Positions 16,851 through 32,370 of a stretch of DNA of 32,370 nucleotides are shown one piece after another. The translations under genes and the position numbers were made by a program. The stretch's first letter is position 1, and every line of letters begins with the position of its first letter. Location: positions 1 to 32,370 of the forward strand of contig JAQGKS010000118.1 of assembly GCA_028289965.1 (NCBI GenBank). The letters are read 5' to 3'. The DNA comes from Sphingomonas bacterium (GTDB lineage: Bacteria > Pseudomonadota > Alphaproteobacteria > Sphingomonadales > Sphingomonadaceae). The notes below the pieces were generated by a model. That model was given only the letters and a program-made list of their open reading frames with translations. It ran no database searches and was not told the DNA's origin.

Positions 16851-17011
16851 CGGGCCTGATCCTGCAGCAGCTTGGTCTTGGCCTCGCCCAGCTGAGCGAG
16901 GACGCTAGTGGTGTTGATCAGCACGTCGAGCTGGGCAGCTGTCAACTTCAGCCCTCGGCCGCGCTCCGAAGCCCGGCTCAACGCGCGCTCCAGATCCATC
17001 AGCGGCGTCAT
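16670..17011 (-). CDS. Small phage protein overlapping the integrase 5' end
   Basis: A possible 113-residue protein. The first 65 residues look like a real helical domain (MDLERALSRASERGRGLKL followed by a long amphipathic segment with LNTTSVLAQLGEAK-like character). The last 60 residues, Ser/Thr/Arg-rich, are read in a different frame across the integrase start. The ATG overlaps the methyltransferase stop (ATGA), the same coupling used throughout this operon, which supports translation. The 181-bp overlap with integrase is unusually long, so an integrase start farther downstream is an alternative. No family is recognised. Confidence 0.55.
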   Translation of the reverse strand: MTPLMDLERALSRASERGRGLKLTAAQLDVLINTTSVLAQLGEAKTKLLQDQARCRAMRDQSTNADTSGLTGTAGGTARYAPLTSPSSATTPQRSGSEAVRQARQRTKRASGP

Positions 17012-17592
17012 GCCGCCTCTCCGAACTTGTCGACGTCGTTGCCCCAGCTCTCCCAGCCCTTGCGGCGCCGGCGGGCGAACAGCTCGACATAGGGACCGTC
17101 GAACATCGCCTCGATGTCGCCGGCGACGCGATCGGGCTTGCGGCTATGCTCGCGCACCGGCTCGACGATCAGCTGGCGGACGCCGCGGCTTTTCGGCAGC
17201 CCCATGTTTCCGATCATGCCGAGCAGGCACATCTCGGGATTCGCCCGGGTGTAGTAGCCGGTGCCCATGTGCCAGCCTGTGTCCCGCTGCGTTCGCTTCG
17301 CCCAGGTGAAGGCGGTGGTGACGTAGCGGAAGCCCCATCGGCGCATCGTTTCCAGCCCATGCTCAAGCATCGGATCGGTGACCCACAGGAACAGGGCGCA
17401 GCTGTCGCCGGCAAGGTGCCCGACGGGCAGCGCCTTGATCTGCTCGATCGACATCGTCCGATAGTGGCGGTTGGGATTCCGGCTCTCGCCCTTCGCCGAA
17501 TAGTTTTCGAACGGCCACGCGGGATCCGCATGGATGACGCGGTAGCCGAACATCTGCAGGCCGGCGAAGGGCCATGAAGCCGCGGATGCCAT
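17008..17592 (-). CDS. MT-A70-family DNA adenine methyltransferase
   Basis: A 194-residue MT-A70-family methyltransferase, expected to make N6-methyladenine in DNA with S-adenosylmethionine. The catalytic DPPW motif appears as DPAW (23-26, in VIHADPAWPFENYS). Other family blocks are FLWVTDPMLEHGL (about 68-80), the TTAFTWAKR stretch and the EMCLLGMIGN region. The ATG at 17592 overlaps the previous stop (TGATG), and the longer upstream frame is spurious. No restriction enzyme is present, so it is an orphan, perhaps protecting phage DNA or altering host methylation signals. Its target sequence is unknown. Confidence 0.88.
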   Translation of the reverse strand: MASAASWPFAGLQMFGYRVIHADPAWPFENYSAKGESRNPNRHYRTMSIEQIKALPVGHLAGDSCALFLWVTDPMLEHGLETMRRWGFRYVTTAFTWAKRTQRDTGWHMGTGYYTRANPEMCLLGMIGNMGLPKSRGVRQLIVEPVREHSRKPDRVAGDIEAMFDGPYVELFARRRRKGWESWGNDVDKFGEAA

Positions 17593-17822
17593 CAGCGTGG
17601 CCGAGGCGCCGGCATGGCTGCCGCAGCAGCGGGGTTCAACCACAGAGCCTCGACGCGTGGACGGGCGCCGAGCTTCGACATCTGCAGCTCGAGGCGGTCG
17701 CGCGCGAGATCCAGCGACACGCGCTTGCCACCCTGGTTGCCATCGCGGAACAGCGCTTCGCGAGTGTGGCGCGAGCGCGGGCGACCAGCTGGCCAGGTGA
17801 GGGGATATGCTGCTGCGCTCAT
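17592..17822 (-). CDS. Small phage protein, hypothetical
   Basis: A 76-residue protein, coupled on both sides (ATGA at its start, TGATG at its stop), which supports translation. It begins MSAAAYPLTWPAGRPRS, which I have seen at the start of phage and prophage hypothetical proteins of alphaproteobacteria that continue with a J-domain-like helical region. The middle (about 30-60) is charged and probably helical, and the end is Ala/Pro-rich. Function is unknown. Confidence 0.72.
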   Translation of the reverse strand: MSAAAYPLTWPAGRPRSRHTREALFRDGNQGGKRVSLDLARDRLELQMSKLGARPRVEALWLNPAAAAAMPAPRPR

Positions 17823-18067
17823 AGCGCTTCTCCGGTGATGCGCGCGGCGATCGCCGCCGGCGGGTTGTCTCGGTGCCAGCGGCGCGCATCGAGGCAGGCG
17901 GCTGACCAGTCGCGGATCCGCTTCTCGGCCCAGGCGGCGCTGATCGCTTCGCGCAGCAGGCGAGGGGTGCGGAACCAGTGCGGGCGGCACATCAGGATGC
18001 CGCGGCGAACCTCCACGGTGCAGCCGGGAGCGTCGCAGATGCTCGGCGGGCGAGGGGCCCGCTTCAC
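17819..18067 (-). CDS. Small putative zinc-binding phage protein
   Basis: An 82-residue protein with Cys11, Cys16, Cys27 and His30 (CDAPGC ... MCRPHW), a plausible single zinc site, then a helical Trp-rich region (about 31-70). Its start overlaps the upstream stop and its stop overlaps the next start, both ATGA. Similar short CxnC...CRPHW proteins occur in phage early operons without assigned role. DNA or protein binding is a guess. Confidence 0.78.
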   Translation of the reverse strand: MKRAPRPPSICDAPGCTVEVRRGILMCRPHWFRTPRLLREAISAAWAEKRIRDWSAACLDARRWHRDNPPAAIAARITGEAL

Positions 18068-18279
18068 GCCCGCACCCAGCGGCTGATCTTGCGGAAGCCG
18101 AGCGCCCTGGCGACGCTCTCGCTCGGCGGGCGATAGCCGCGGGCAATCTGCGAGATGGCGCCGGCGCTTAGGCCGGCTTCGTGGGCGAAGCGCTTGCTCT
18201 CTCCGCGCCGCCGGACCCGGTCTCGGAGGGCGGCTAGAACCTCCGCGTCGCCCTCGATGACTTCGTTGCAGCCCGGCAT
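18064..18279 (-). CDS. Small helix-turn-helix protein
   Basis: A 71-residue protein with one helix-turn-helix: residues 28-55 (ESKRFAHEAGLSAGAISQIARG) fit the XRE-like pattern, with AGLSAGAISQIARG as turn and recognition helix. The C-terminus ALGFRKISRWVRA resembles the ends of small phage HTH proteins. It is coupled by TGATG to the upstream gene and by ATGA to the downstream one. It could be a Cro-like or excisionase-like regulator, and its position in front of the integrase operon end makes an excision-related role possible. Confidence 0.75.
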   Translation of the reverse strand: MPGCNEVIEGDAEVLAALRDRVRRRGESKRFAHEAGLSAGAISQIARGYRPPSESVARALGFRKISRWVRA

Positions 18280-18443
18280 CAGTGCAGCACCACGCTGCAG
18301 GTGGCGACGGTGATCGCCAGCATGCAGAGGATGGCGATGCGCGTCTCGCCCGCGGCGGCGGCCGAGACCGGGCCAGCGGGCTTGCAGGTGCGGCAGCGGC
18401 AGAACTGATCGTGGATCGTGCCAGGGCGTTCGATGAGGCGCAT
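18279..18443 (-). CDS. 54-residue membrane protein with CxCxxC motif
   Basis: A 54-residue protein with FCRCRTCKPAGP (14-25), a cysteine cluster that could bind a metal, and a C-terminal hydrophobic helix (about 34-53). A GGAG element lies 9 bp before the ATG, and the stop overlaps the next start (TGATG). Short proteins of this shape recur in sphingomonad prophages without known function. Confidence 0.68.
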   Translation of the reverse strand: MRLIERPGTIHDQFCRCRTCKPAGPVSAAAAGETRIAILCMLAITVATCSVVLH

Positions 18444-18502
18444 GGTGTCGCTCTCCGAGAGTTGGTTGAGGGGGGCGGCGCCGAGGGTGGGGCGGGCGGC
18501 GT

Positions 18503-18649
18503 TCACAGCCAGCCCAAAAGCTGGGCGATGCCGAACGCGATCCAGAGGATCGTCAGAGCCAGGCTCCCCACCAAAAGCGCGAGATACCGCAGGTGGTCGC
18601 CCCGGCTTTCGTGGCTGAGGCGGCCGAACAGGTTGGGCGCGTCGCACAT
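18503..18649 (-). CDS. 48-residue membrane protein
   Basis: A 48-residue protein with a soluble N-terminus (MCDAPNLFGRLSHESRGD) and one transmembrane helix (about 23-46, LALLVGSLALTILWIAFGIA). Its ATG overlaps the stop of the 155-residue gene (TGATG), the main support for translation. A 59-bp gap follows before the next gene. The function is unknown. Confidence 0.68.
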   Translation of the reverse strand: MCDAPNLFGRLSHESRGDHLRYLALLVGSLALTILWIAFGIAQLLGWL

Positions 18650-19116
18650 CACGCTGCCCGATCCAGCGGCAGCATCGCCTGCCACGTTCCGGCGGCACGA
18701 CGCTCGAGCTGCTCGCACCGCTTGCACCGCTCGCCTTCCTCGGCCCAGCTGTTCGATGCGCCCTCAAGATCGTTGGTCTCGGTCCATTCGTCCCAGCCAC
18801 AGGTGCGGCAGAGGCGCGGGTGCAGGTGTGCCGGATCCTCGGCGAGCTGGCGGTAGATCAGCGGATCGAACGGGAAGGCGCGGTTAATGGTCTCGGCGAC
18901 CCACTGATCCATGATTGCGTCGGGCTGCTCGAAGCCCAGGAGGATGGTCTCGACGTCGTCCTGATGCGCCGGGTTCTTCCAGAACGGCCGTGCCGCCTGG
19001 GCGATGGTGAGCCGGGCGGCTCCCCGGCGCAGGCGCAGATAATCCCACGGCTTGATCGGATCGGGGGTGGCAGCGGCGGCGCCGACGTCGGCGGTGATTT
19101 GCTGGTGAAGGGACAT
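18649..19116 (-). CDS. Phage protein with C-terminal zinc ribbon
   Basis: A 155-residue soluble protein. Residues 25-62 (WDYLRLRRGAARLTIAQAA onward) suggest an HTH-like helical part. Four cysteines near the C-terminus (Cys103, Cys106, Cys131, Cys134, as CRTC and CKRC) form a probable zinc ribbon. It lies 24 bp downstream of the 40-residue membrane ORF and is coupled to the next gene. I do not recognise the family; DNA binding is plausible. Confidence 0.78.
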   Translation of the reverse strand: MSLHQQITADVGAAAATPDPIKPWDYLRLRRGAARLTIAQAARPFWKNPAHQDDVETILLGFEQPDAIMDQWVAETINRAFPFDPLIYRQLAEDPAHLHPRLCRTCGWDEWTETNDLEGASNSWAEEGERCKRCEQLERRAAGTWQAMLPLDRAA

Positions 19117-19140
19117 GATCGTTCCTTATCGGGACGTGGA

Positions 19141-19263
19141 TCAGCGGCGCGCGGCGGCGGCGCGGGCGAGGACCACGATGAGCAGGATTGGCGCGGCGCA
19201 GATCGCCGCCGCGATGAGCAGCAGCAGGCGCAGGCGGCGCTGGCTGGTGGCGGACGCCGGCAT
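19141..19263 (-). CDS. 40-residue membrane protein
   Basis: A very small gene of 40 codons plus TGA. The protein has a short polar start (MPASATSQRR), one hydrophobic helix (about 11-34, with LLLLIAAAICAAPILLIVVL) and an Ala/Arg tail. Its ATG overlaps the GapR-like stop as TGATG, the same junction used by neighbouring genes, which supports translation despite the length. Function is unknown; a membrane effector or regulator is possible. Confidence 0.6.
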   Translation of the reverse strand: MPASATSQRRLRLLLLIAAAICAAPILLIVVLARAAAARR

Positions 19264-19667
19264 CAGTTTAGGCCCAGCGCGGCTTTGTACGCCTCGAGGA
19301 GCATGTCCTCTTCCCGCAGAGCGTCGCTGTCCCTTTTTCTGCGCGCAATGATCGCACGCATCGTCTTACCGTCGAAGCCGGTGCTTTTCGCCTCGGCAAA
19401 CACGTCGCTCAGCTCTTCCTGCGCGCCGAGGATCTCCTCGATTATGCCTTCGGCGCGCTCGATGAACTGGCGCAGCTGCTGCGCGGCGCTCTCGGCGCTG
19501 GCGTTCGTGATGGGGTCGGGCGCCTTGCGCTTCCGCTTGCCCTTCCCCTTCCCGGCAGGCTCTGCTGTGATGGCGCGCAGCTCGTGGCGCACGCCTCCGG
19601 CGCCGTCTGGCACGGCGGTGAAGCGCATGGGCGTGGATGGACTTGAGGCGCAGCTGTTCGATTGCAT
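19263..19667 (-). CDS. Phage GapR-family (DUF2312) DNA-binding protein
   Basis: A 134-residue protein whose C-terminal 75 or so residues match the GapR/DUF2312 family: LRQFIERAEGIIEEI, then DVFAEAKSTGFDGKTMRAII and the ARRKRD segment, ending with LEAYKAALG. GapR of Caulobacter is a nucleoid protein that encircles overtwisted AT-rich DNA ahead of replication and transcription. Here about 55 extra N-terminal residues include a very basic patch, KGKGKRKRK, not found in the roughly 90-residue host proteins, so extra DNA contact is likely. It lies 16 bp downstream of the primase-helicase, which suggests a role in phage replication or in competition with host GapR. An internal ATG at 19628 is an alternative start. 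Confidence 0.85.
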   Translation of the reverse strand: MQSNSCASSPSTPMRFTAVPDGAGGVRHELRAITAEPAGKGKGKRKRKAPDPITNASAESAAQQLRQFIERAEGIIEEILGAQEELSDVFAEAKSTGFDGKTMRAIIARRKRDSDALREEDMLLEAYKAALGLN

Positions 19668-19683
19668 CGCTCGGAGCCTTTCT

Positions 19684-22395
19684 TCAGCGGGGAGGGGTTG
19701 CCGGCGCGTGCGCCGGGTTATGGAAGCACCAGCAGTTCACGGTCTTTCCGACGCGCGAGTTGACCGGTTTGTAGTCGAGGAAGCGGCGGGCCTTGCTGGT
19801 GCGCAGCAGGCGCTTCAGCTCGTTGATCGGCGGCAGCGACAGGCGCAGATCGCCGCAACGTTGCTCGAACTGCACCAGGTTGATCGCGATGGTGTCAGCC
19901 GTGCGGCTATGGTTGATCCAGGTCGATGTCGCGTCGGTCTCCAGGCTCTGGATGTAATCGAACCGCTCCCAGAAGGTCTCGACGTGGGGGTGATCATGCT
20001 CGACCGCGCGCTGGCGTTCGGTCAGCATCGTGCGGATCTGATCGTGCGCCAGCTCGACGTCGCGATCGGGTAGGTTGGTGACGACCAGTCGCATCGCATC
20101 CAGCATCGCGGCGAGCTGCGCGTGGTTCTTGGCGAGGCGGCCGTTGCGGATGCCGGGTTGCTTGAGCATGGCCGTTTCGTGGACGGCAAAGCGCTCACGA
20201 TAGCGTTCAAGGATCAGCGCCTCGCGCCGAACAGCGTGGACGATGAAGCCCGAGACGTCGGCCATATCGAAGCGAGACAGGGCCTCGGCCGCCACCTTGG
20301 TGTGTGGCCCCCATCCCGCCTTGTCGAAGTGGATGGCCATGATGCGCTCACGCATCGCCGGCGACGCTTCAACCGGATCGTTCTGGACGATGGCGATCGC
20401 GCCGCGGAAGGGTGGCTCGAACGTCTCCATGCCGCCATTGGCGATCGCGCGCGTGCGGACAGCGCGACCGTTATAGGCTGTCTTCAACTCGTCCCATTCG
20501 AAGCGGCGGCCGTGCGGCGTATCCTGCCCGCGATCGCCCTCGATCAGCACGACGGGTAGATTGCCGACCTGGCCGAGGGTGCGGGCGATGCCGGCGTTCG
20601 TCGCCTTGGTCGGGTCGAAGCCTTCGTAATTGCCGGTGCGGCCGCAGAGCTTCCAGTAGAAAGCGAACAAAGTCGTCTTGCCGGTGCCGGGGATGCCGGT
20701 GGCTTCGAGAAAGGCGAGGCTCTCCTGAAAGCTGCGGATCTGCTCGGCAAACAGGCTGAGCATCCAGAAAGCGAGGGTGACGACGCCCTTCGATCCGAAG
20801 GCGGCTATGACGTGCGGCAGCCAGGCCAGATTGAGATTGTCCGGATCGTAGGAGATGCGGAGCAGCTGATCGGTGGTGCGCAGCTTCACCGAATGCTTGC
20901 CGAAGACGAAATAATCGTCCTCGTTCTTTTTGCAGACGCGTCCGTTGGAGACGCCGAGGTCGCCGAACAAATAGGCACCGTGATCGATCGAATAGCCGGT
21001 GTGCTGGATCGCCTCGACCATGCGGATCGCGGTCCATTGGCGCTGCATCAGCTTGTCGAGATGTTGGGTGGTGCCGGTGAACTGCGCGCCGGGTGCCACC
21101 GAGGAAAGGCGTTTCTTGAATTCGGCACCGGCGGCGCAGGCTGCGCCGGAGAAGGTGGCCTTGACGATCGGGCGAGGCGGATGGTCCCGCACGACGGGGA
21201 AGTCGATGCGGAAATAATAAGCGCCCTCGTCGAGGTTGGCGTCGCGCTGGAAGTAGAGGGTGCGGAAGGTGCAGTTGGCGAGTTCGGTGATCTCGACGGC
21301 CTCGCGCGCGGCGAGGTTCCACTGCTCCTCATAGGAGAGGCCACTCATCTCGGGCGAGTCCGCCCGGCTCTCGACGATCTCGTTGATCCGCTCGATGCGG
21401 AAGGTGGCCCAGAGCTGGCGGACCTTGTGGACGAGCGGGAAGGACGCTGTCTTGTGCCGCTGGTAGATCAGGAACGCCTTCTCGGCGGCGTTAGGGGCGA
21501 TCGTGACATCGCCGTTCCAGCGATATTCGTCGAGCAACTCGGGGGTGAGCTTCTCGGCCTGGGCGAGATCGTTCCAGTCGAGCTTCGTGCCCTCACCATC
21601 GGGGCGGACCTGAGCGGCGCCGGCGGCCCAGCCATCCTTGCGCGCCCGCTCGACGAACTTGCGGGTATAATCGACGCCGGCCTTGCCGACATCCAAGGCG
21701 AAGATCAGTTTCGGCCCGACACGGCCGAGATCGCCGGCGACGCGGCGCAGCTCGGCCAGCGCCTCCTCGGGATAGTTGTTGCACGACATCAGCGACACGG
21801 CGGTCAGCCCGGCGCCGCGCAGGGCGAGCGCGTCGAAGATGCCCTCGGCGAGCCACAGCTCGGACGCGCTGGCGAGCGTCGCGGCATCGTCGGTTGGGTG
21901 CTGCCACCAGCGGCCGCGATAACCCTTGCCCGGGGAGAAGCGGGCTTTCATGTCGCCGAAGCGGCCCGGCTGATCGATCAGCCGTTCCCAATAGGCGCCG
22001 CCGGGCAGGGGGAAGCGCACTGTGGCCGAGCCGATGTTCCGCTCGCGATCCTGATACCACTCCTCGGTGTAGGCGCCTTTCAGACCCAGCAGGTCGAAAC
22101 CCCGAGCGTGCGACAGGTAGGCGTCGGCGGCTGCGTTCGGCTCGCGGTCCGTCTTTTTGAAGCGCTTCGACCAGTCGTCGAAGATCTCCGGGTAGAGTTC
22201 CTTGACCTTCCCTTCCCAGCCACAGTTGTTTTCGCGGCCGCAGCGCACGGTCCAAGGCTTAGCGGCGTGGGTGTAGAGCGACTTCTTGGCACCGCATTCG
22301 GGGCAGCGCCCCTCGCGCAGCCATTCGCCGCGGTCCACCAGCCCGTAGTCGCGCTTCAGGCGCTGTGTGACTTCTCGGAGCAGATCGTCGCGCAA
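19684..22395 (-). CDS. Toprim primase-helicase (phage replication protein)
   Basis: A 903-residue replication protein combining primase and helicase regions. The N-terminus has a zinc finger (Cys31, Cys34, Cys52, Cys58; CPECG ... NCGWEG). A Toprim domain follows, with Glu184 in LWLAEGIFDAL and Asp235 in IFALDVGKAG; the usual second Asp of the DxD is Gly237 here. A central region of unknown fold precedes an ATPase domain with Walker A GIPGTGKTT (567-575) and Walker B-like VVLIEGD (615-621). The start is a TTG at 22395: no ATG or GTG exists in frame upstream before a stop at 22480-22482, and the zinc finger needs this N-terminus. It is the replication protein of the early operon, analogous in role to P2 gpA or P4 alpha but not the same family as gpA. 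Confidence 0.88.
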   Translation of the reverse strand: MRDDLLREVTQRLKRDYGLVDRGEWLREGRCPECGAKKSLYTHAAKPWTVRCGRENNCGWEGKVKELYPEIFDDWSKRFKKTDREPNAAADAYLSHARGFDLLGLKGAYTEEWYQDRERNIGSATVRFPLPGGAYWERLIDQPGRFGDMKARFSPGKGYRGRWWQHPTDDAATLASASELWLAEGIFDALALRGAGLTAVSLMSCNNYPEEALAELRRVAGDLGRVGPKLIFALDVGKAGVDYTRKFVERARKDGWAAGAAQVRPDGEGTKLDWNDLAQAEKLTPELLDEYRWNGDVTIAPNAAEKAFLIYQRHKTASFPLVHKVRQLWATFRIERINEIVESRADSPEMSGLSYEEQWNLAAREAVEITELANCTFRTLYFQRDANLDEGAYYFRIDFPVVRDHPPRPIVKATFSGAACAAGAEFKKRLSSVAPGAQFTGTTQHLDKLMQRQWTAIRMVEAIQHTGYSIDHGAYLFGDLGVSNGRVCKKNEDDYFVFGKHSVKLRTTDQLLRISYDPDNLNLAWLPHVIAAFGSKGVVTLAFWMLSLFAEQIRSFQESLAFLEATGIPGTGKTTLFAFYWKLCGRTGNYEGFDPTKATNAGIARTLGQVGNLPVVLIEGDRGQDTPHGRRFEWDELKTAYNGRAVRTRAIANGGMETFEPPFRGAIAIVQNDPVEASPAMRERIMAIHFDKAGWGPHTKVAAEALSRFDMADVSGFIVHAVRREALILERYRERFAVHETAMLKQPGIRNGRLAKNHAQLAAMLDAMRLVVTNLPDRDVELAHDQIRTMLTERQRAVEHDHPHVETFWERFDYIQSLETDATSTWINHSRTADTIAINLVQFEQRCGDLRLSLPPINELKRLLRTSKARRFLDYKPVNSRVGKTVNCWCFHNPAHAPATPPR

Positions 22396-22418
22396 GGTGC
22401 GGGGTTCTTTCAGGCAAG

Positions 22419-22476
22419 GCGGGGGCGTCTCCGGAAGCGGGGGCGTCCGGACGGGCTGGGTCTCGATGGGGGCGTC
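22419..22476. repeat. Three copies of GGGGGCGTC upstream of the primase gene
   Basis: GCGGGGGCGTC occurs at 22419-22429 and 22437-22447, and GGGGGCGTC at 22468-22476, in the 110-bp gap between the Ogr-like and primase genes. Starts of the first two are 18 bp apart. On the minus strand the repeats also read as a Pro-rich in-frame peptide just upstream of the TTG start. They could be binding sites, iteron-like elements or remnants of coding sequence. Confidence 0.5.
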
Positions 22477-22505
22477 AGATCAGGCGGCGGTCAGCCGCGC
22501 TGGGA

Positions 22506-22844
22506 TCAGCCGGGGGCGATCATGGCGTCACAGGGTGCAGGCAGCGGCTCGACGTCGTTCGCCGGGATCGGCATGTCGTCGTTGGCCGGCTTGGTCTTCG
22601 GCAGCACCGGCCCCGCCTTGGAGAAAGGGAGGTGGACTTCCGGGTTCGGCCGGGCGCTAGGCACGATCGTGCGAATGATCGAGATGGCGGCGACGCCGCT
22701 CCATCCGCATTCGTCATTCTCGCAGCGCAGGCGCAGCTCGCGATAGGTGGCGGTCACCTTCTCGCTGGTCCGCACGATCGAACGGGTATTGCAGTGTGGG
22801 CAGGTAATTGCCGGGAGTCGCACCCGGGTGATCTTCGGCTTCAT
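22506..22844 (-). CDS. Ogr/Delta-like zinc-finger late-gene activator
   Basis: A 112-residue protein with the Ogr/Delta zinc finger in residues 1-50: CPHCNTRSIVRTSEKV (Cys15, Cys18), then RLRCENDECGWSG (Cys41, Cys46). Ogr of P2 and Delta of P4 recruit RNA polymerase to late promoters, so this should switch on the tail and head operons. The remaining 60 residues are Pro-rich and probably disordered. Its ATG overlaps the upstream stop (ATGA). In P2 ogr lies just after gene D; here it is inside the early operon, before the replication gene, which would couple late expression to early transcription. Confidence 0.85.
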   Translation of the reverse strand: MKPKITRVRLPAITCPHCNTRSIVRTSEKVTATYRELRLRCENDECGWSGVAAISIIRTIVPSARPNPEVHLPFSKAGPVLPKTKPANDDMPIPANDVEPLPAPCDAMIAPG

Positions 22845-23335
22845 TGGGATCCCCCCATCTTCGTGGCGGTCGGCCCCGCGCCGAACGGCAGGAAGGACGT
22901 GATCCGGCGCTTCAGGCGGGAGAGGGCGCCGTGCGCCTCCTCGACCTCTGCCAGCGCGCGGTGAAACTGTGCCGGTGTGGCGGCGGGATCGAGGATCGCG
23001 ACCGAACAGGAGATTGCCTCGCCGGCGTCGCGCGATGCCTCCTCGATCGTCTGCAGCAGATCGCGCCGGCATACGTCCTGAACGGCAACCTGAACCTCGA
23101 GCTGGAAGGCATAGGCATCGAGCAATGGCGCATCCTCACCGCCCGCTGCGCGGTAGGCGGCGTCGAGATTGCGCGCCTGGTCGAGCGTGGGACTGCGGCC
23201 CGAATCGGGCTCGCTCCACAGGCGCACGATCCGCTCCTTGCGATCGACGACGCGCGCGGCACCGTCGAAGCCGATCAGCCCGGCGATGCGGGTGACGGCC
23301 TGGGCAAAGGTGAGGGGGGTGCGCAGCTTGGTCAT
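22841..23335 (-). CDS. Phage regulatory protein, CII-like (putative)
   Basis: A 164-residue soluble protein. The N-terminal half (LTFAQAVTRIAGLIGFDGAA, then DRKERIVRLWSEPDSG) looks like a helix-turn-helix domain of the type annotated as phage regulatory protein CII-like in prophages. The C-terminal half is helical, with acidic and Ala-rich segments. It is second in the early operon, coupled by ATGA to the Cro-like gene and to the Ogr-like gene. A role in the lysis/lysogeny choice or in replication control is inferred from position and fold. Confidence 0.65.
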   Translation of the reverse strand: MTKLRTPLTFAQAVTRIAGLIGFDGAARVVDRKERIVRLWSEPDSGRSPTLDQARNLDAAYRAAGGEDAPLLDAYAFQLEVQVAVQDVCRRDLLQTIEEASRDAGEAISCSVAILDPAATPAQFHRALAEVEEAHGALSRLKRRITSFLPFGAGPTATKMGGSQ

Positions 23336-23661
23336 GCCCGCGCGCGCCGTTGCGAAAGCGCGCCCCGATCGCACGCGACGATCGGGGCGCCAGTGGCTAC
23401 GGTCCCTTCGTTGCACTTGGTGAGAGGATTAAGTGCAGGGTCCGCAGGGTAGAGATCGGGGCGAAGCAGGTGGCGAGAGACGCCGGTCTCCGCCTCAGTG
23501 GTGAGGACGTACTCGGCGGGCAGCCGTTTGCCGCTTTGCAGCCACTTCCAGACAGCCGTCTGTGACACGCCGCAGAGGCGGGCGAAGGCCGACTGAGAGC
23601 CGCTGCGCACGACGGCGGCTTTAAGAGCCTCAAAGGGGGTCACGGGGGGAACGTCGGGCAT
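23332..23661 (-). CDS. Cro/YdaS-like HTH repressor
   Basis: A 109-residue DNA-binding protein of the YdaS/Cro type. The helix-turn-helix is SQSAFARLCGVSQTAVWKWL (about 25-44), followed by the family stretch LPAEYVLTTEAETGVSRHLL and RPDLYP. It is the first gene of the leftward early operon and divergent from the CI-type repressor, the classical place for Cro. The ATG at 23661 starts just inside the operator region; the TTG at 23670 would add three residues. The C-terminal 35 residues are not conserved-looking. YdaS was named as an antitoxin, but no toxin partner is adjacent, so a Cro role is preferred. Confidence 0.82.
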   Translation of the reverse strand: MPDVPPVTPFEALKAAVVRSGSQSAFARLCGVSQTAVWKWLQSGKRLPAEYVLTTEAETGVSRHLLRPDLYPADPALNPLTKCNEGTVATGAPIVACDRGALSQRRARA

Positions 23662-23671
23662 AACAACCAAC

Positions 23672-23687
23672 TACAACCAGAGTTGTA
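23672..23687. promoter_or_regulatory. Operator O1, 16-bp dyad
   Basis: TACAAC-CAGA-GTTGTA is a perfect inverted repeat 10 bp upstream of the Cro-like ATG. Together with O2 it gives the shared form TRCAACCARAGTTGTA. A further half site ACAAC is present near 23663-23667. Confidence 0.75.
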
Positions 23688-23719
23688 TGATGGTCAACAC
23701 CTAAATTTCCCTGTTGCCC

Positions 23720-23735
23720 TGCAACCAAAGTTGTA
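23720..23735. promoter_or_regulatory. Operator O2, 16-bp dyad
   Basis: TGCAAC-CAAA-GTTGTA matches O1 at 14 of 16 positions and lies 9 bp upstream of the repressor ATG. Its centre is exactly 48 bp from that of O1. An extra GTTGC half site (23713-23717) abuts it. The positions fit control of both divergent genes by CI and Cro. Confidence 0.75.
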
Positions 23736-23744
23736 GGGGGAAGA

Positions 23745-24404
23745 ATGATCAAGGTTGAGCGCCTGGCGGAGCGCATGCGGGCAAAGGGGCTCTCGCAGGC
23801 AGAACTTGCGCGCCGGGTCGGCATCTCCCAGCAGGCCATCGGTAAGCTCGTGAACGGAAGTTCGCGCAGCACACCGCACATCGGGCAGATCGCCACTATT
23901 TTAGAGACGTCCCCAGCATATCTTGTTGGCCAATCGGATGACCCCGCTGAAGGTGCGCCGCTGCTAGCGACGCCGGAGGTGATCGCAGATCAGCTCGAAC
24001 TCGTCCGCATCAACGAGGTGTCGCTCGATTATGGGATGGGCGGGAGCTATCTCGACGATGCCGTCGAGTTGATCCCGCGCTATTTCCCCGAGGTATGGCT
24101 GCGCAGCGTGACAGATACGCCGCCAGAAGCCCTATTCTTCGCACGCGGGCGCGGGGACTCGATGCAGCCTACGCTCCTGGATGGAGACATGGTGCTAATC
24201 GATCGGTCGGAGCGGATGATTCGCGAGCAGGATCGGATTTGGGCCATCGCGTACGGTGACATCGGATCGATCAAGCGTCTTCGCCGCACGCCTCGGGGGG
24301 AGGTTAAGGTGATGTCCGACAATCCGACTGTGTCCGAGGAAGTGATCGGCAGCGATGACTTGTACGTGATCGGGCGCGTTGTGTGGATTGGCCGTAAGAT
24401 CTAA
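23745..24404 (+). CDS. CI/LexA-type repressor with S24 peptidase domain
   Basis: A 219-residue prophage repressor. The N-terminus is an XRE helix-turn-helix (LSQAELARRVGISQQAIGKL, about 16-35) and the C-terminus an S24 (LexA/UmuD-like) autopeptidase domain with Ser139 in GDSMQPTL and Lys177 in GSIKRL. RecA-stimulated self-cleavage after DNA damage would release the lytic operon. The usual Ala-Gly or Cys-Gly cleavage pair before the peptidase domain is not obvious; a Gly-Gly at 99-100 (YGMGGS) is the nearest candidate. The start ATG follows a strong GGGGGAAG. It is divergent from the Cro-like gene across two operators and is the first gene in the direction of the accessory block. Confidence 0.92.
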   Translation: MIKVERLAERMRAKGLSQAELARRVGISQQAIGKLVNGSSRSTPHIGQIATILETSPAYLVGQSDDPAEGAPLLATPEVIADQLELVRINEVSLDYGMGGSYLDDAVELIPRYFPEVWLRSVTDTPPEALFFARGRGDSMQPTLLDGDMVLIDRSERMIREQDRIWAIAYGDIGSIKRLRRTPRGEVKVMSDNPTVSEEVIGSDDLYVIGRVVWIGRKI

Positions 24405-25684: not shown

Positions 25685-26320
25685 ATGAAGTCGGCTGCTT
25701 GCCTCTGGCTCTTTGGGATCGGATTCGCTGCACTTGCCGTCTTGCTCGCCTGCGTGTCTAAGTATATTGGCAATGAGGATTATCGTAGGCTGGCATTGAT
25801 CGCGCAGAATAATACCCGAACATATGTCGATCAATATGTCGCTTCTCGACACATTGCGGGCGACGAGGTCGCCTTGATGCTCGCACACTTGCCACCACCA
25901 CCGTCGCTAGGGGCGGAGAGTGTGCGGTTCGTGGCGGTCCCGACCTGTGCCAATACGATGTTCGCCTTTTCCCTCGCTGCCGACGGCACCGGCCGCCTAA
26001 TCATCGTCGTCCGGCAGCAGGGTGCCAACCTCCATTCGGTCGCAAGCAGACGAACATTCAGCATGCCTGCAACTGTCACCAAGTCTTTGTTGGCAGAGTT
26101 CGACCGGCTTGCACCTCCTTGGCAGGGTGATGCAGAAATCGCCTTTGATGGGACCCACGTTGGCTTCGAGCGCGCTCATGCCGGAACAACCTTTTCCGGA
26201 GGCGACGCTACCAGTACGTACGCACATCTAGCGGCTGCCGTGAAATCCTTGCTGACTCCCTATGTCGCCGAACTCGCAGGAGTAGATCATGCTTGGCTTC
26301 ATCCTTCAGCGGGCTGCTAA
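25685..26320 (+). CDS. Accessory exported or membrane-anchored protein, hypothetical
   Basis: A 211-residue protein that I do not recognise. It begins with a hydrophobic leader (about 4-24) ending VLLAC, which could be a lipobox (Cys23) or a membrane anchor, so the rest (25-211) is extracytoplasmic. That part is mixed alpha/beta in appearance, with PPPPSLG near 74-80 and strands such as RLIIVVRQQG. G+C here is about 47-55% by eye, well below the phage and host genes. The ATG at 25685 is chosen because the leader starts there; the open frame upstream to 25502 lacks coding character. It stands as a single gene with its own spacer on both sides. Confidence 0.6.
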   Translation: MKSAACLWLFGIGFAALAVLLACVSKYIGNEDYRRLALIAQNNTRTYVDQYVASRHIAGDEVALMLAHLPPPPSLGAESVRFVAVPTCANTMFAFSLAADGTGRLIIVVRQQGANLHSVASRRTFSMPATVTKSLLAEFDRLAPPWQGDAEIAFDGTHVGFERAHAGTTFSGGDATSTYAHLAAAVKSLLTPYVAELAGVDHAWLHPSAGC

Positions 26321-26361
26321 ACTTTAGTGGCAGAACGAAGCTCGCCGAAGCCTGTCCGGAG

Positions 26362-26391
26362 GCGACTGCTTTCCACCACTTGCGGACGTTC
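26362..26391 (+). repeat. Intergenic repeat, copy 4 (best preserved)
   Basis: GCGACTGCTTTCCACC followed by ACTTGCGGACGTTC (26378-26391). This copy shares its left half with copy 5 (14 of 16 bases in CTGCTTTCCACCACTT) and its right half with copies 1 and 3, which links all of them. Confidence 0.55.
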
Positions 26392-26503
26392 AGGCTCCCG
26401 CCTATGCCCCCATGGGTGAGGCTTGGTTCGCCGGGATGACTTTTGGACCCTCTCCGATTCCAATACCACAAATGAATGCAGCGGCGTCCGGCGGAGAAAT
26501 GTC

Positions 26504-27028
26504 TTGCGTACCGAGAAGCTTGTCGCGGGCCTCCTAGCTTGCCTATTTGGCAGCTCCGAAATCAACGCTGAGGTCGTTAGTTTTGACTGCGACACGCCGG
26601 GAAGCCATTCGTCAGAGTTTGCACGTGACGTGTCTAAGACGTCCCTTGAAGCTGGCGGCGCGGTCAGGTTGGTCGAAGAGCGGCCGTTTAGAAATGCGAT
26701 TCCGGCGGCGAATATATTCTTCAGTAAGGAGCCAGGCGTGGCCCTCGTCGGCCTCAGGTTCATTGCTTATCCTGAGAAACGAAAAGTGATTTCGGTTATG
26801 CTCTTCCGAGACGGCCAGCCCGACGCTCAAAAAGTGATAGCCGAGATCCAGAAGACCAGCGATGCGATCCCGTTCAATATGTCCATGCGGGATCAAGAGG
26901 TCACCGTGGTCGTTGCAGGGCAGACATTCGTGATGCCTGTCTCCAAGGGAACGGTGAAGCAGATCTCGCTGTCCTGCTTCAGCGCCCAATTCAAGTTTGC
27001 GGCTGTTGAACTCAAGGAGTCCGATTGA
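26504..27028 (+). CDS. Accessory exported protein, hypothetical
   Basis: A 174-residue protein with a signal peptide (about 1-22, ending SSEINA) and an exported domain of about 150 residues containing two or three cysteines and beta-rich stretches such as RKVISVMLFRDG. The start is best placed at a TTG (26504), because GGAG lies 7 bp before it and the signal peptide begins there; an upstream TTG at 26423 would add 27 residues and hide the leader. I recognise no family. It is the last gene of the accessory block and faces the convergent tail operon. Base composition is unlike the phage genes on either side, suggesting later acquisition. Confidence 0.6.
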   Translation: MRTEKLVAGLLACLFGSSEINAEVVSFDCDTPGSHSSEFARDVSKTSLEAGGAVRLVEERPFRNAIPAANIFFSKEPGVALVGLRFIAYPEKRKVISVMLFRDGQPDAQKVIAEIQKTSDAIPFNMSMRDQEVTVVVAGQTFVMPVSKGTVKQISLSCFSAQFKFAAVELKESD

Positions 27029-27368: not shown

Positions 27369-28388
27369 CTATCCGCTCACTTCCAGCTGCAGCGACGTGG
27401 TGAGTCCGCGGTCGGTAAGGCTGTGCGCCACTTCCGCCACCAGCCACTGGACAGCATCGATTGACGCCTTGAAGCCCTCAGCCCTGGCGCGCTGCTCCGG
27501 GTAGATGTCGGGTCGACCGAGTGCCAGGTCGAAGCTCAGCTTGAGCGGTTGCCGCATAGCCCGCCCGCGCTCAGCCTCCGCCGCGCGGCGCGCCGCGGCC
27601 TCGGTCGGATACACCCGCGACAGCCGCTTCACCTTGGCCGTGCCGCCGGCGGTGACGTCCTGCTTCTTCGCGCCCTTGCGATCGTGCCAGCTGGCGGTGA
27701 CGCCAGAGACCTCCTCGCGCTTCTCGATGCGGAAGCTGTGCCGATCGCCGTCGCGCCGACGGATCGTGATCGAGGGGAGCGGCTTGCCCGCGGGCGTGGT
27801 GCCGGCGCCCTTGCGCGCGAAGATCAGGCTGCCGCGCTTGATGGTGGCAACCGCATCATGCTCGCGGCCGAGGCGGCGCAGCAGCGCCAGATCGCTCTCC
27901 CGGCTCTGCGCCGCGGCCGTCACGGCTATGCCGGCGAGCGCCGGCGCGCAGCGTGCGATGAGCTTGTGGCGCGCGGCGACCTCGGCGACGATCGCGCCGA
28001 TCGTCGTGTCGTGCCAGCTCTTCTCGCGGCGGGTGCGGATATCGCTCGTGAAGTCGGCCGAGCGCGCGCGGATGGTGATGATGTCGGGCGGCCCGCTATG
28101 TTCCACTTCGTCGACGGTGAAGCTGCCCTTGTCGACCAGCCCGACCTTGACGTCGCTGCCCTGTTTCCAGCCCAGCTGGACGTGGAGCAGCGCGCCGGTC
28201 TTCGGCAGTGCCATGCGGCCGTCGCTGTCATCAATGACGATGTCGAGCTGGTCGGCCTCGTCACCGCGCTTCTCGGTCAAAGTGAGCGAGACCAGGCGCG
28301 GGCGGATGCGGTTCGTCAGGTCGGCGCCGTCGAGCGTCACCTTGAAGTCGGCAATGTTGGCGGTAAAGGGCGCGGGGGCATCGGTCAT
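27369..28388 (-). CDS. D: Phage late control gene D protein (tail spike hub)
   Basis: A 339-residue P2 gpD-family protein, the baseplate hub component of contractile-tailed phages related to T4 gp27 and VgrG. It has the family's N-terminal region (DFKVTLDGADLTNRIRPRL), an internal block SADFTSDIRTRREKSWHDTT (about 110-129), then DLALLRRLGREHDAVA (about 165-180), and a C-terminal region with VYPTEAAARRAAEAE. The length is normal. Its ATG overlaps the gpU stop (ATGA). It is the last gene of the leftward tail operon, as in P2, but it is followed by accessory genes on the opposite strand instead of ogr. Confidence 0.92.
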   Translation of the reverse strand: MTDAPAPFTANIADFKVTLDGADLTNRIRPRLVSLTLTEKRGDEADQLDIVIDDSDGRMALPKTGALLHVQLGWKQGSDVKVGLVDKGSFTVDEVEHSGPPDIITIRARSADFTSDIRTRREKSWHDTTIGAIVAEVAARHKLIARCAPALAGIAVTAAAQSRESDLALLRRLGREHDAVATIKRGSLIFARKGAGTTPAGKPLPSITIRRRDGDRHSFRIEKREEVSGVTASWHDRKGAKKQDVTAGGTAKVKRLSRVYPTEAAARRAAEAERGRAMRQPLKLSFDLALGRPDIYPEQRARAEGFKASIDAVQWLVAEVAHSLTDRGLTTSLQLEVSG

Positions 28389-28777
28389 TTCGCCGGCTCG
28401 GGGCCATCGACGGCGAGAAGATCGAGGGCGAAGTCGATCCGCAGCGGCGTGCCGTCGGCCATGAAGACCTTCTGCCGCTCATCGAGCGCGGTGATGACGA
28501 AGGCGCCGTAGACCCGGCCTGCGCCATCGACCAGCGACCAGGCCTGCCCGCTTGCGCCCATGGTGCGCAGCTCCTCGAGCGCGGCGGTGACGTCGCCCAG
28601 CTCGGCGAAGGCGGTTCCGGTGAGGCTGATCGTGTCGTCGCCTGGGCCGGTGAACTGGGTCGCATCGCGCGCGCCGACGCGGGGGCTGCGGCCGTGGCGC
28701 CAATCGGTGCGGCGCTGCAGCTCATCATGCGCGAACGTCGGGATCGAGAAGGCGAACATGCCGAGAGACATCAGCAT
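28385..28777 (-). CDS. U: Phage tail protein U (gpU family)
   Basis: A 130-residue gpU-family tail protein. Hallmarks are the N-terminal MFAFSIPTFAHDELQRRTDW, the central ARDATQFTGPGDDTISLTG and the DFALDLLAVDG end. In P2 gpU is needed for tail completion. A GGAG lies 7 bp upstream of the ATG inside the end of the tape-measure gene region (3-bp gap). It is coupled to gene D by a 4-bp overlap. Confidence 0.9.
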   Translation of the reverse strand: MLMSLGMFAFSIPTFAHDELQRRTDWRHGRSPRVGARDATQFTGPGDDTISLTGTAFAELGDVTAALEELRTMGASGQAWSLVDGAGRVYGAFVITALDERQKVFMADGTPLRIDFALDLLAVDGPEPAK

Positions 28778-28780
28778 CGG

Positions 28781-31348
28781 TCAGCTCCAGTCGGGTTGAT
28801 CGGCAAAGCGGGAGCGCGACGCGGCGGCCTGCTCGCGCTGCAACTTCTCCCACTCGACGCGGACCGCGCGCGCTATATCCTGCGGGCTCTGACCGGGCGC
28901 TCCGTAGACGTTGATCGTCACCGGCGCTGGCGCGGCAAGTGCTGCAGCTGCTCCAGCGGCGGCCGCGCTGCCGCCGGCGCTGCCTGCGGCGATCGCGGGA
29001 ACCGCAGCGCCCACGGCCATCGCCGCCGCAACCTCGCGCGAGAGGCGCTGCACGCGACGGATCGGTTCGCTCGCGCCTTGATGGATGCCGAGGGCGAGCC
29101 CCTCCGATATGAACCCGCCGAAGCCCATGAATACGCGGCTGGGCGAGTTGATGCCGGCACCCTTCTTGAACCCGGAGGCGACCGACTTGGCGAGCGACGT
29201 CGCGGCCGACCAGGCAGCGCCCGGTGCGCTGGCGATGCCGCGGATCAGCCCCTTAACGATATAGACGCCGAAGCTGTAGAACATGGCCGGCAGCGTCGTG
29301 AATGCAGCCACGATTGCTGTGCGCAGGGTGGTGAAGGCAAAGGTCCAGCCCCGACCGAGTAGCCCCGGCAGCGTGCCCGTGAACCAACCGAACGCGGCTG
29401 CGCCGAAGCGGTACAGCAAGCCGAGCGCGAAGCCGTTCATGTTGCCGATCGCGCCGAAGATGCCGGCGATGCCGCCTGCAAAGACGGACCTGATCGCCTG
29501 CCAGATGCTGCCGAACCAACCGGCGATCGCACCCCAATTATTATAGATGAGGTAGGCACCGGCGGCGATCGCCGCGATACCGGCGACAATGCCCGCGGCG
29601 ATACCGATCACCGGAAGCAGGCCGATCCCCAGCGCCCCCGCGACGAAGCTGAGCGCGGCAAACGGGGCGAGCGCCCCGGCGGCGGCGAACGCCAGCCCGC
29701 CCATGACGATGGTGAGGAGAGCGAGGCCGCCAGCGAGCAGGCCGGCCCATTTGGCAGCGGTCGGAAAGCGCGTGGCCATGTCGCCCGCCCAGGTCGCGAA
29801 GCCGGTGAGCTTGCCGAGGAGCGCGGTTGCGCTCGGCAGCAGCACGGCACCCATGGTCAGGCCGAGCACCTTGGCGCTGATGGCGAACTGCTTTGACTTC
29901 TCGGCGCCGTCCTTCAGCCGCTCGGCGAAGTCGGCATCGGTCACGCCCTTGGCGGCGAAGGCGTCGGCGCGGATCCGCTTATATTCGTCGATGTTCTGGA
30001 TCAGCGGACGAAGCGCCTGCTGGACCTGCGCGTCCTCGAACAGGAAACCGAGCCGGCTGAGATCGCCCTTCAGCGTCTTGTTGGTCAGCTCGGTGATCGC
30101 CTCGAGCGGCGTCTTGCTCTCCTTGTAGGCGTGCTGCAGCGCCGCTGGCAGATCGACGCCGAATTCCTTGAACTTCTTGATCGTGCCGGGCGCCGCCATC
30201 TTCTGCAGCAGGTTGGCGATGTTGGTCGCGGCCGAGGCGCTATCGCCGGTGCCCTTGCGGGCGATCTGCAGCGCCGCGGCGAGATCCGCGACGGCGCCGA
30301 CGCCCTTCTGGCCGAGCCCTTGCGCGGCCGCGGTCAGCATCGGGAAATGCTGCGCCATATCCTTGATCTCGAAGGCACCGCTCTTGCCGGCCTGCGCCAT
30401 GACGTCGATTACGCGAGCCGTCTGTGCGACCGGCACCTTGAGGTTGTCGTTGGCGGCGAAGGCGGCGGCCGACAGGTCGCGGATCTCGGCCTTGTAGGCG
30501 GTGGCCGCGCGGCCGATCGGCGTCATCATCCGCACCGCCTGGCGCGGATCGAGCCCGAAGCCGGAGAGCGCATCGACGCCCTCCTGCAGCGCATCGGGCA
30601 GCTGGTTGGCGGCCTTGGCCGCGGCGAGCAGGCCGAGGCCCATCTGCCGCGCTTCCTCGCGCGACAGGTTCGCCTTCTGGGCGATGTCGGTCATCACCGA
30701 CTGGTAGGCCATGGCCGACTTGATCGAGCCCAGGACGGGCGCGCCGGCGGCGACGCCGGTGCCGATCGAGGCCGCGCCGCCGGCGGCGAGGGCCGTCGCG
30801 CGTCCCTGAATGCGGCCGAAGTTTTCGCGCGCGGCGCCCATGCGCCGGCTGCGGTCTGCGAGCTGCTGAACCCGCCGGCTCTGCTCGGCCAGCTCCTCAT
30901 TGGTGCGGGCGATCTGGGAATGGAGGGTGCGCTCATATCCCGCCAGATCGCGGGTCTCGGCACCTGCCGCCCGCATGCGCTCGCGCACTTCTCGCAGAAG
31001 AGACGATTCCTCCCGGTGGCGGCCCGACAGCATCGACACCTCCCGCTGCGCCTTCTGATAATTGGCCGTCATGCGCTTGGTGGGATTGTCGCTCGCAGCG
31101 ATCTCCCGGGCGAGCGCCGCCACCCACGTCTCGGCCGCGCGCAAATCGTTGCCGGTTGCTCGGACGTCCGCGCCCAGCTTGCGGAAGCCGGCCATATCCT
31201 CTTGCGCGCGGGTCAACTCCTTCAGCCGATCGCGCGCGATCTTCAGCGCCTGGGCAGCGCGGGTGGAGCCGCCGGCGATGTCGCGTAGCGGCTTGGTGAC
31301 GCGATCGCCGGCCTCGAGCAGCATGCGGATGCGCAGGTTCCGGTCCAT
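28781..31348 (-). CDS. T: Phage tail tape measure protein (gpT)
   Basis: An 855-residue tape measure protein that sets tail length and later leaves the tail during DNA injection. Residues 1-190 are charged and strongly helical (coiled coil), starting MDRNLRIRMLLEAGDRVTKP. The conserved TP901/P2-type core follows (AMAYQSVMTDIAQKANLSRE, about 215-235). A long hydrophobic zone at about 545-660 (LLAGGLALLTIVMGGLAFAA and following) could span the host membrane. The C-terminus has NSPSRVFMGFGGF and an Ala-rich tail. A GAGAGG ribosome-binding site precedes the ATG, 10 bp after the E' stop. Length fits a P2-size tail. Confidence 0.92.
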   Translation of the reverse strand: MDRNLRIRMLLEAGDRVTKPLRDIAGGSTRAAQALKIARDRLKELTRAQEDMAGFRKLGADVRATGNDLRAAETWVAALAREIAASDNPTKRMTANYQKAQREVSMLSGRHREESSLLREVRERMRAAGAETRDLAGYERTLHSQIARTNEELAEQSRRVQQLADRSRRMGAARENFGRIQGRATALAAGGAASIGTGVAAGAPVLGSIKSAMAYQSVMTDIAQKANLSREEARQMGLGLLAAAKAANQLPDALQEGVDALSGFGLDPRQAVRMMTPIGRAATAYKAEIRDLSAAAFAANDNLKVPVAQTARVIDVMAQAGKSGAFEIKDMAQHFPMLTAAAQGLGQKGVGAVADLAAALQIARKGTGDSASAATNIANLLQKMAAPGTIKKFKEFGVDLPAALQHAYKESKTPLEAITELTNKTLKGDLSRLGFLFEDAQVQQALRPLIQNIDEYKRIRADAFAAKGVTDADFAERLKDGAEKSKQFAISAKVLGLTMGAVLLPSATALLGKLTGFATWAGDMATRFPTAAKWAGLLAGGLALLTIVMGGLAFAAAGALAPFAALSFVAGALGIGLLPVIGIAAGIVAGIAAIAAGAYLIYNNWGAIAGWFGSIWQAIRSVFAGGIAGIFGAIGNMNGFALGLLYRFGAAAFGWFTGTLPGLLGRGWTFAFTTLRTAIVAAFTTLPAMFYSFGVYIVKGLIRGIASAPGAAWSAATSLAKSVASGFKKGAGINSPSRVFMGFGGFISEGLALGIHQGASEPIRRVQRLSREVAAAMAVGAAVPAIAAGSAGGSAAAAGAAAALAAPAPVTINVYGAPGQSPQDIARAVRVEWEKLQREQAAASRSRFADQPDWS

Positions 31349-31358
31349 GTCGCGCCTC

Positions 31359-31475
31359 TCAGGTGTCGGCCTTGACGCGCTCCGCTGCGCGCGCGTGCCA
31401 TGCCATCAGTTCGGGCAGGCTCATCCCGTCCATCGCGGACGGGGGCCAGTGGAAGACGATGGCGAGATCCGCCAT
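31359..31475 (-). CDS. GpE-family tail protein (E' reading frame)
   Basis: A 38-codon frame beginning MADLAIVFHWPPSAMDGM and ending AERVKADT, a clear GpE-family (P2 E') sequence. Its own ATG exists, but the frame stays open upstream to the slippery site at 31526-31532, so the main product is expected to be the C-terminal part of an E-E' fusion. It lies 8 bp past the stop of E and 10 bp before the tape measure gene. It acts with gpE as a tape-measure chaperone. Confidence 0.82.
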   Translation of the reverse strand: MADLAIVFHWPPSAMDGMSLPELMAWHARAAERVKADT

Positions 31476-31801
31476 TGCCTCGTCTATGCTTGCGGGGAGG
31501 CCGCCTGCTTCGCGGCTGTCGGCAGCAAAAAATCCATGACCTCGCCGCCGAACTGCATGAAGTCCGCCGGGTCCATCGCGACGACGTCGGGCTTCTGCAA
31601 GATCGGGGTGGTGATGCGCGGCGCCAGCGTCTCGAGCGAGGCATAATCGAGCTGGCTGAGCGCGAGCAGGGTCAGCCCGCGCAGCTCGCCGGCGCCGGGC
31701 TTGCGCACGACGATCTCGGTGCCGGCGGGATGCACCACCTTGCCATCGATCGTGATGTCGAAATCGAGGGTGAAGCGGCGAAGGGTGGGCGTGTCGGACA
31801 T
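31359..31801 (-). CDS. E-E' fusion tail-assembly chaperone made by -1 frameshift
   Basis: Predicted 147-residue product. Translation starts at the E ATG, proceeds to Asp90-Phe91-Leu92, slips back one base on T TTT TTG, and continues through 17 codons with no stop into the E' frame. The junction reads Asp-Phe-Phe-Ala-Ala-Asp. In P2 the equivalent fusion is made in minor amounts and is essential for tail assembly, like lambda G-GT. Register and absence of stops were checked base by base; frameshifting itself is inferred. Confidence 0.8.
31484..31801 (-). CDS. E: Phage tail assembly protein E
   Basis: A 105-residue tail assembly chaperone of the P2 gpE/Mu gp41-like type. It starts MSDTPTLRRFTLDFDITIDG, has LRGLTLLALSQLDYASLETL (40-59) and a conserved RITTPIL, then DPADFMQFGGEVMDFLLP near the end. 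A GGAG lies 6 bp before the ATG. The frame ends 14 codons after the slippery site. The longer open frame reaching 32266 overlaps FII and is not coding. It lies 62 bp downstream of the tail tube gene across a strong hairpin. Confidence 0.9.
   Translation of the reverse strand: MSDTPTLRRFTLDFDITIDGKVVHPAGTEIVVRKPGAGELRGLTLLALSQLDYASLETLAPRITTPILQKPDVVAMDPADFMQFGGEVMDFLLPTAAKQAASPQA
31526..31532 (-). promoter_or_regulatory. -1 ribosomal frameshift site T TTT TTG
   Basis: On the minus strand the heptamer TTTTTTG lies in the E frame as GAT TTT TTG (codons 90-92), the exact X XXY YYZ register for -1 slippage and the same heptamer type used by P2 gene E. It is the only such run near the end of E. 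Confidence 0.85.
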
Positions 31802-31863: not shown

Positions 31864-32370
31864 TCAGAACAAGCCGAGCGCGGCGCGGCGTTCGGCCATC
31901 AGGTCGACGCCGCCGACGATGTGGACCATGCCGAGAACGTCGATCTCGATCTCGGTGCGGCCGTTCCAGATCAGCTTGTAGTAGGAGACCGACGTCTTGA
32001 CCTTGAACTCGCCGCCTTCGCCTGGCTTCCATTCGCCCATGTCGATTTCGGAATGGCGGCCGCGCAGGACGATCTCGATGCGGGTAAGCTCGCCGGTGTC
32101 GTCGGCCTGGAACGTGCCGACGAAGCGCAGCCCGGTCATTCCGGCCTGGGCGAAGCCGGACTGGCGTAGGACATCGCGCACCGGACCTCCGATCGACCAT
32201 TCGGCCTCGAGCTTCTCGCCGCCCATGTCGATCTCGATGGGGGTATCCATGCCGCCGCCGCGCCACTCCTCCATCTTGCGGGTGAGCTTGGGGGGCGTGA
32301 GGCTGGCGACTTCGCCGAGATAGGCGGAGCCTGCATTGAAGAGCATCAGATCCTTGATCTTGCGGGGGAG
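31864..32370 (-). CDS. FII: Major tail tube protein FII (5' end outside window)
   Basis: The P2 FII-family tail tube protein, which polymerises as the inner tube of the contractile tail. Diagnostic segments are LTPPKLTRKMEEWRGGGMD, FVGTFQADDTGE, and IVLRGRHSEIDMGEWKPGE, followed by VEIDVLGM-like and VDLMAERRAALGL ends. The internal ATG at 32346 is not the start: the frame continues to the edge as LPRKIKDLMLFN, matching the conserved N-terminus (PRKLK) of this family. So 169 codons including the stop are visible and only a few N-terminal residues are missing. The tail sheath gene FI should lie just beyond the right edge. Confidence 0.93.
   Translation of the reverse strand, partial: LPRKIKDLMLFNAGSAYLGEVASLTPPKLTRKMEEWRGGGMDTPIEIDMGGEKLEAEWSIGGPVRDVLRQSGFAQAGMTGLRFVGTFQADDTGELTRIEIVLRGRHSEIDMGEWKPGEGGEFKVKTSVSYYKLIWNGRTEIEIDVLGMVHIVGGVDLMAERRAALGLF

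Follow-up and report, generated by a model that had tools for sequence, protein, structure and literature searches.

The window, that is, the whole stretch of DNA analysed, is the entire contig C175 of 32,370 bases, which ends within the tail tube gene FII. A series of tail genes occupies the minus strand at this end. FII (31864..32370; PF04985, 195.2 bits), whose 5' end is cut off by the contig end, is followed by gene E (31484..31801), a tail assembly chaperone gene of 105 aa with its ATG at 31801 and its stop at 31484. E matched the phrog_103 tail protein (E=1.1e-25) and PF10109 (Phage_TAC_7), the latter barely above the cut-off (26.4 vs 25 bits), and both matches identify an E-family chaperone in frame 0, as in a P2-type E/E+E' pair. 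Next come the GpE domain E' (31359..31475; 38 codons plus a stop; phrog_6416, E=4.2e-19), the 855-aa tape measure gene T (28781..31348; PF10145, 64.4 bits; phrog_28, E=1.1e-108), the 130-aa tail gene U (28385..28777; PF06995, 131.2 bits) and the 339-aa tail/baseplate hub gene D (27369..28388; PF05954, 50.1 bits; phrog_52, E=1.2e-130). The P2 tail operon has this same order, FII-E-E'-T-U-D. A 148-aa open reading frame adjoining D (26317-26763, minus strand) matched none of the Pfam and PHROG families. The rest of the prophage, at 15540-24404, comprised genes for an integrase, a DNA methyltransferase, a 903-aa primase (phrog_1139), an Ogr-like zinc finger and a CI-like S24 repressor.

Close to the end of E, the minus strand carries the slippery heptamer T TTT TTG (31526..31532), read from 31532 to 31526. 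This is the sole copy of TTTTTTG in the window, counting both strands. Its offset in the E frame is 269, and it reads GAT TTT TTG across codons 90-92, in the register of a -1 slip. The first shifted codon, GCT, begins on the G of the heptamer. From there the -1 frame passes through 55 codons before it reaches a stop, at 31361-31359. These comprise a bridge of 17 codons (31476..31526) and the 38 codons of the ATG-initiated frame at 31475-31359, so that the GpE domain is entered without an intervening stop. The match of this domain to PF06528 reached 71.6 bits for the 38-aa open reading frame and 69.9 bits for its longer frame, with a cut-off of 23. The original prediction had described this heptamer in register at codons 90-92, a 55-codon open -1 frame with a 17-codon stop-free bridge, and a GpE-family frame reached by the shift. 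The position and offset of the heptamer bore out the first point, the 69.9-bit match to PF06528 confirmed the last, and every number given there held.

Among the closest known systems are E and E+E' of bacteriophage P2, for which Christie et al. 2002 is cited. The P2 record (NC_001895) annotates E+E' as a -1 product, and its annotated site, 19685, is the base right after TTTTTTG. P2 and the window thus share the same heptamer in the same register, the -1 shift, a GpE domain in the shifted frame (MADVAVIFHWPP in P2, MADLAIVFHWPP in the window) and the location between FII and T. They differ in the length of E (91 aa in P2, 105 aa in the window) and of the bridge (18 and 17 codons, respectively). 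In addition, E+E' of P2 overlaps the start of T, whereas E' in the window stops ahead of the T start codon. Excerpts of PMC3091744 describe the P2 shift at TTTTTTG as conserved in three Burkholderia phages, place it after the terminal G of the heptamer, and report no hairpin predicted within 60 bp. These P2-like phages, KS5, KS14 and KL3, resemble the window in the TTTTTTG site, in E and E+E', and in that a downstream hairpin was not found, but they have other hosts, and their E+E' is about half identical to that of P2 (PMC3091744, excerpts). The Stenotrophomonas phage Smp131 (JQ809663) likewise has E, E' and the joined frameshift product annotated, according to excerpts of PMC3931495; its site differs, however, in being T7G rather than T6G, with T7C in related prophages, and an additional small gene lies between E' and T. 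The gpG/gpGT pair of lambda also involves a -1 frameshift, located shortly before a gene for a tail chaperone ends (PMC5009743, in part), but is without sequence similarity (PMC3931495, in part). The statement in the original prediction that the mechanism is established for P2 and similar chaperones is consistent with the P2 record and with the descriptions of the site in PMC3091744 and PMC3931495.

We then compared 121 GpE-domain loci, the window's own included, many of which are redundant. A heptamer was counted if it lay in slip register in the 40 codons that precede the GpE domain. TTTTTTG was found in register in 93 of the 121 loci, T6N in 107 and some X XXY YYZ heptamer in 120, in a set that is biased towards T6 sites because 98 of the loci were found by search patterns that included a -1-frame peptide beginning FF. 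Among the remaining 23 loci, which the GpE domain alone had retrieved and which include the window's own, T6N was present in 12 and an in-register heptamer in 22. Clustering of 120 loci at 90% identity (one of the 121, with less than 200 nt upstream, was dropped) gave 70 clusters, with TTTTTTG in 46 and T6N in 58. The other clusters had C CCT TTC (4), C CCT TTT (2), G GGA AAG (2) or single other heptamers, with G GGA AAG as a second candidate in one further cluster; loci with two heptamers received a single label in this clustering, as L121 also carries GGGAAAG and L123 also CCCTTTG. No heptamer fitted the search pattern in one cluster of the 70, represented by one locus of the 121 (L116), which keeps GAT TTT where its relative L092 carries G GGT TTT.

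The site is conserved among the relatives of the window. The closest of them (L012, L017-L026 and L094-L098) without exception have TTTTTTG, and their bridges are 16 or 17 codons long. The titles of L094-L097 name Sphingomonas, Novosphingobium or Sphingomonadaceae; L098 comes from an uncultured bacterium, L017-L026 from viral contigs and L012 from a genome. The original prediction had proposed that relatives without the heptamer or bridge would speak against it. Most relatives keep the site, some distant ones have another slippery heptamer, and one of the 121 loci has none by pattern. Residue identity over the overlap, in 20 clusters of the same length, was 44% in the -1 frame and 42% in the 0 frame, and conservation of the overlap therefore cannot show which frame is selected.

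In distant GpE carriers, T6N is replaced by other slippery heptamers. C CCT TTC stands at the corresponding place in L118, L126, L128 and L129, and G GGA AAG, which is the lambda heptamer, in L122 and L127. In L118 and L123 about 485 codons are open in the zero frame ahead of the GpE heptamer, many more than an E gene would take up, and in L118 (the same place as L136:4194-5981) this long frame encodes a TPR protein whose C-terminus is E-like. Two genomes of one genus (L136, G222:C22:8000-22091, and L137, G319:C13:11000-28000) each have three GpE domains within about 8 kb, adjoining Mu-like tail genes (DNA_circ_N and GpP-like in both, and Gp45 too in L136). All three GpE domains of L136 come after an E-like (PF10109) stretch, two of these stretches being just under the cut-off or weaker, and the first GpE domain lies at the C-terminal end of a TPR-repeat frame of 595 aa.

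The six T's might simply be the chance outcome of encoding Asp-Phe-Leu in E, with E' as a relic. At this composition, finding TTTTTTG anywhere in the window is indeed no rare event, with a mean of 0.72 in shuffled sequences. The register and place of the heptamer are another matter. When E was re-encoded synonymously in 20,000 trials, with codon usage taken from the tail genes themselves, an in-register T6N arose in just 47 within the 110 nt that lead up to the GpE Met. Within FII, E, T, U and D, with the site excluded, Phe is encoded by TTT at 6 of 61 codons and Leu by TTG at 7 of 150, and the default codon choice of these tail genes thus runs against TTT TTG. Across the clusters, the density of T6N in the 120 nt preceding the GpE domain (67 in 8,400 nt) was 33.6 times that in the remaining same-strand sequence of the same loci (78 in 328,927 nt). 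The use of TTT in all 58 T6 clusters is a circular statistic and was given no evidential weight. The open bridge, which the original prediction had emphasized, was observed as described but is weak evidence, because a bridge of at least 17 codons stayed open in 18,314 of the 20,000 re-encodings (92%); the real -1 frame is open well past the bridge, its open stretch in the contig reaching back 141 codons from the GpE domain on the upstream side. Together with the re-encodings, the conservation of place and register across relatives and the strong conservation of the GpE domain make a chance origin extremely unlikely. Polymerase slippage is possible at homopolymer runs, and the T run might cause transcriptional rather than ribosomal slippage. 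The T7 runs in some relatives, among the loci compared and in excerpts of PMC3931495, would fit this. However, the site of most relatives is exactly T6G, in register for a tandem slip, and the corresponding place in some distant ones is taken by non-homopolymer heptamers, C CCT TTC and G GGA AAG among them, which leaves transcriptional slippage with a close to negligible probability.

Another route to E' would be termination at the E stop and reinitiation at the ATG at 31475, giving E' alone in place of the fusion. This ATG sits 8 nt past the E stop, a distance that many relatives preserve, and a motif-based call gives ATG there in 45 of the 70 clusters; the annotation of Smp131 also has a separate E' coding sequence besides the fusion. 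In 16 of the 70 clusters, however, a different codon occupies the position, and nine gave no clear call. The ATG of the window is preceded by just GAGG, two bases off, which leaves too little room for a good ribosome-binding site. Such a route would also have no need of an in-register heptamer, yet the heptamer is kept. We consider it very unlikely that reinitiation replaces the fusion. Both routes might operate together, with E' made as the -1 fusion and also as a free 38-residue protein from the same ATG, in which case the phage would have a free GpE domain in addition to E+E'; this we regard as improbable, though less so than reinitiation alone.

Taken together, the protein families, the gene order, the identical annotated site of P2 and the relatives support the reading in the original prediction. 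The feature is most probably the E/E+E' tail-chaperone pair of a P2-type prophage, including the -1 slippage, and from the sequence we put the probability of this at about 0.93. Under this E/E+E' reading, most ribosomes would translate E through to its own stop and release the 105-aa protein. A minority would pause on U UUU UUG once Phe and Leu have been decoded, and the Phe and Leu tRNAs would both slip one base back onto UUU UUU (tandem -1 slippage). The shifted ribosome would then read the 55 codons of the -1 frame to give a 147-aa E+E' fusion. The analysis establishes the heptamer and its register, the open frames, the protein families, the order of the genes and the conservation of the site; slippage, its rate and the chaperone role are inferred. 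By analogy with lambda gpG/gpGT, from which the chaperone roles of E and E+E' are carried over, the tape measure protein would be the binding partner of E, and the E' part would recruit the tube protein.

The main fusion junction should read Asp-Phe-Leu-Ala-Ala, because the P2 record and the excerpts of PMC3091744 place slippage after the decoding of TTG; the peptide expected to span it under tandem slippage is ...GGEVMDFLAADSR. The original prediction had named an Asp-Phe-Phe-Ala-Ala junction. This would be a minor product, as a Phe-Phe junction would arise only if slippage precedes Leu decoding. We also looked for a downstream pseudoknot or hairpin, and none of three folds of 60-100 nt clearly beat shuffled sequences (z values of -0.11, -0.96 and -0.89). 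A stimulatory RNA structure is no requirement, being absent from P2 and its relatives according to the excerpts of PMC3091744.

The visible tail genes are intact, with T, U, D, E and E' all being unbroken frames. The original prediction had gone on to take the intact signal as an indication of a functional tail module, which overreaches because FII is cut by the contig end and because, in the window's own 87%-complete assembly, a search for the sheath family yielded a single match that fell below the cut-off, and a search for the P2 GpO-like scaffold family found none.

The site is real, was correctly read, and is of an ordinary kind already well described in P2-like phages. It matters chiefly for annotation, as gene callers would report E alone, with E' missed or misplaced. 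It also adds a high-G+C prophage, with its nearest named relatives in Sphingomonadaceae, that keeps a six-T site against its own codon usage.
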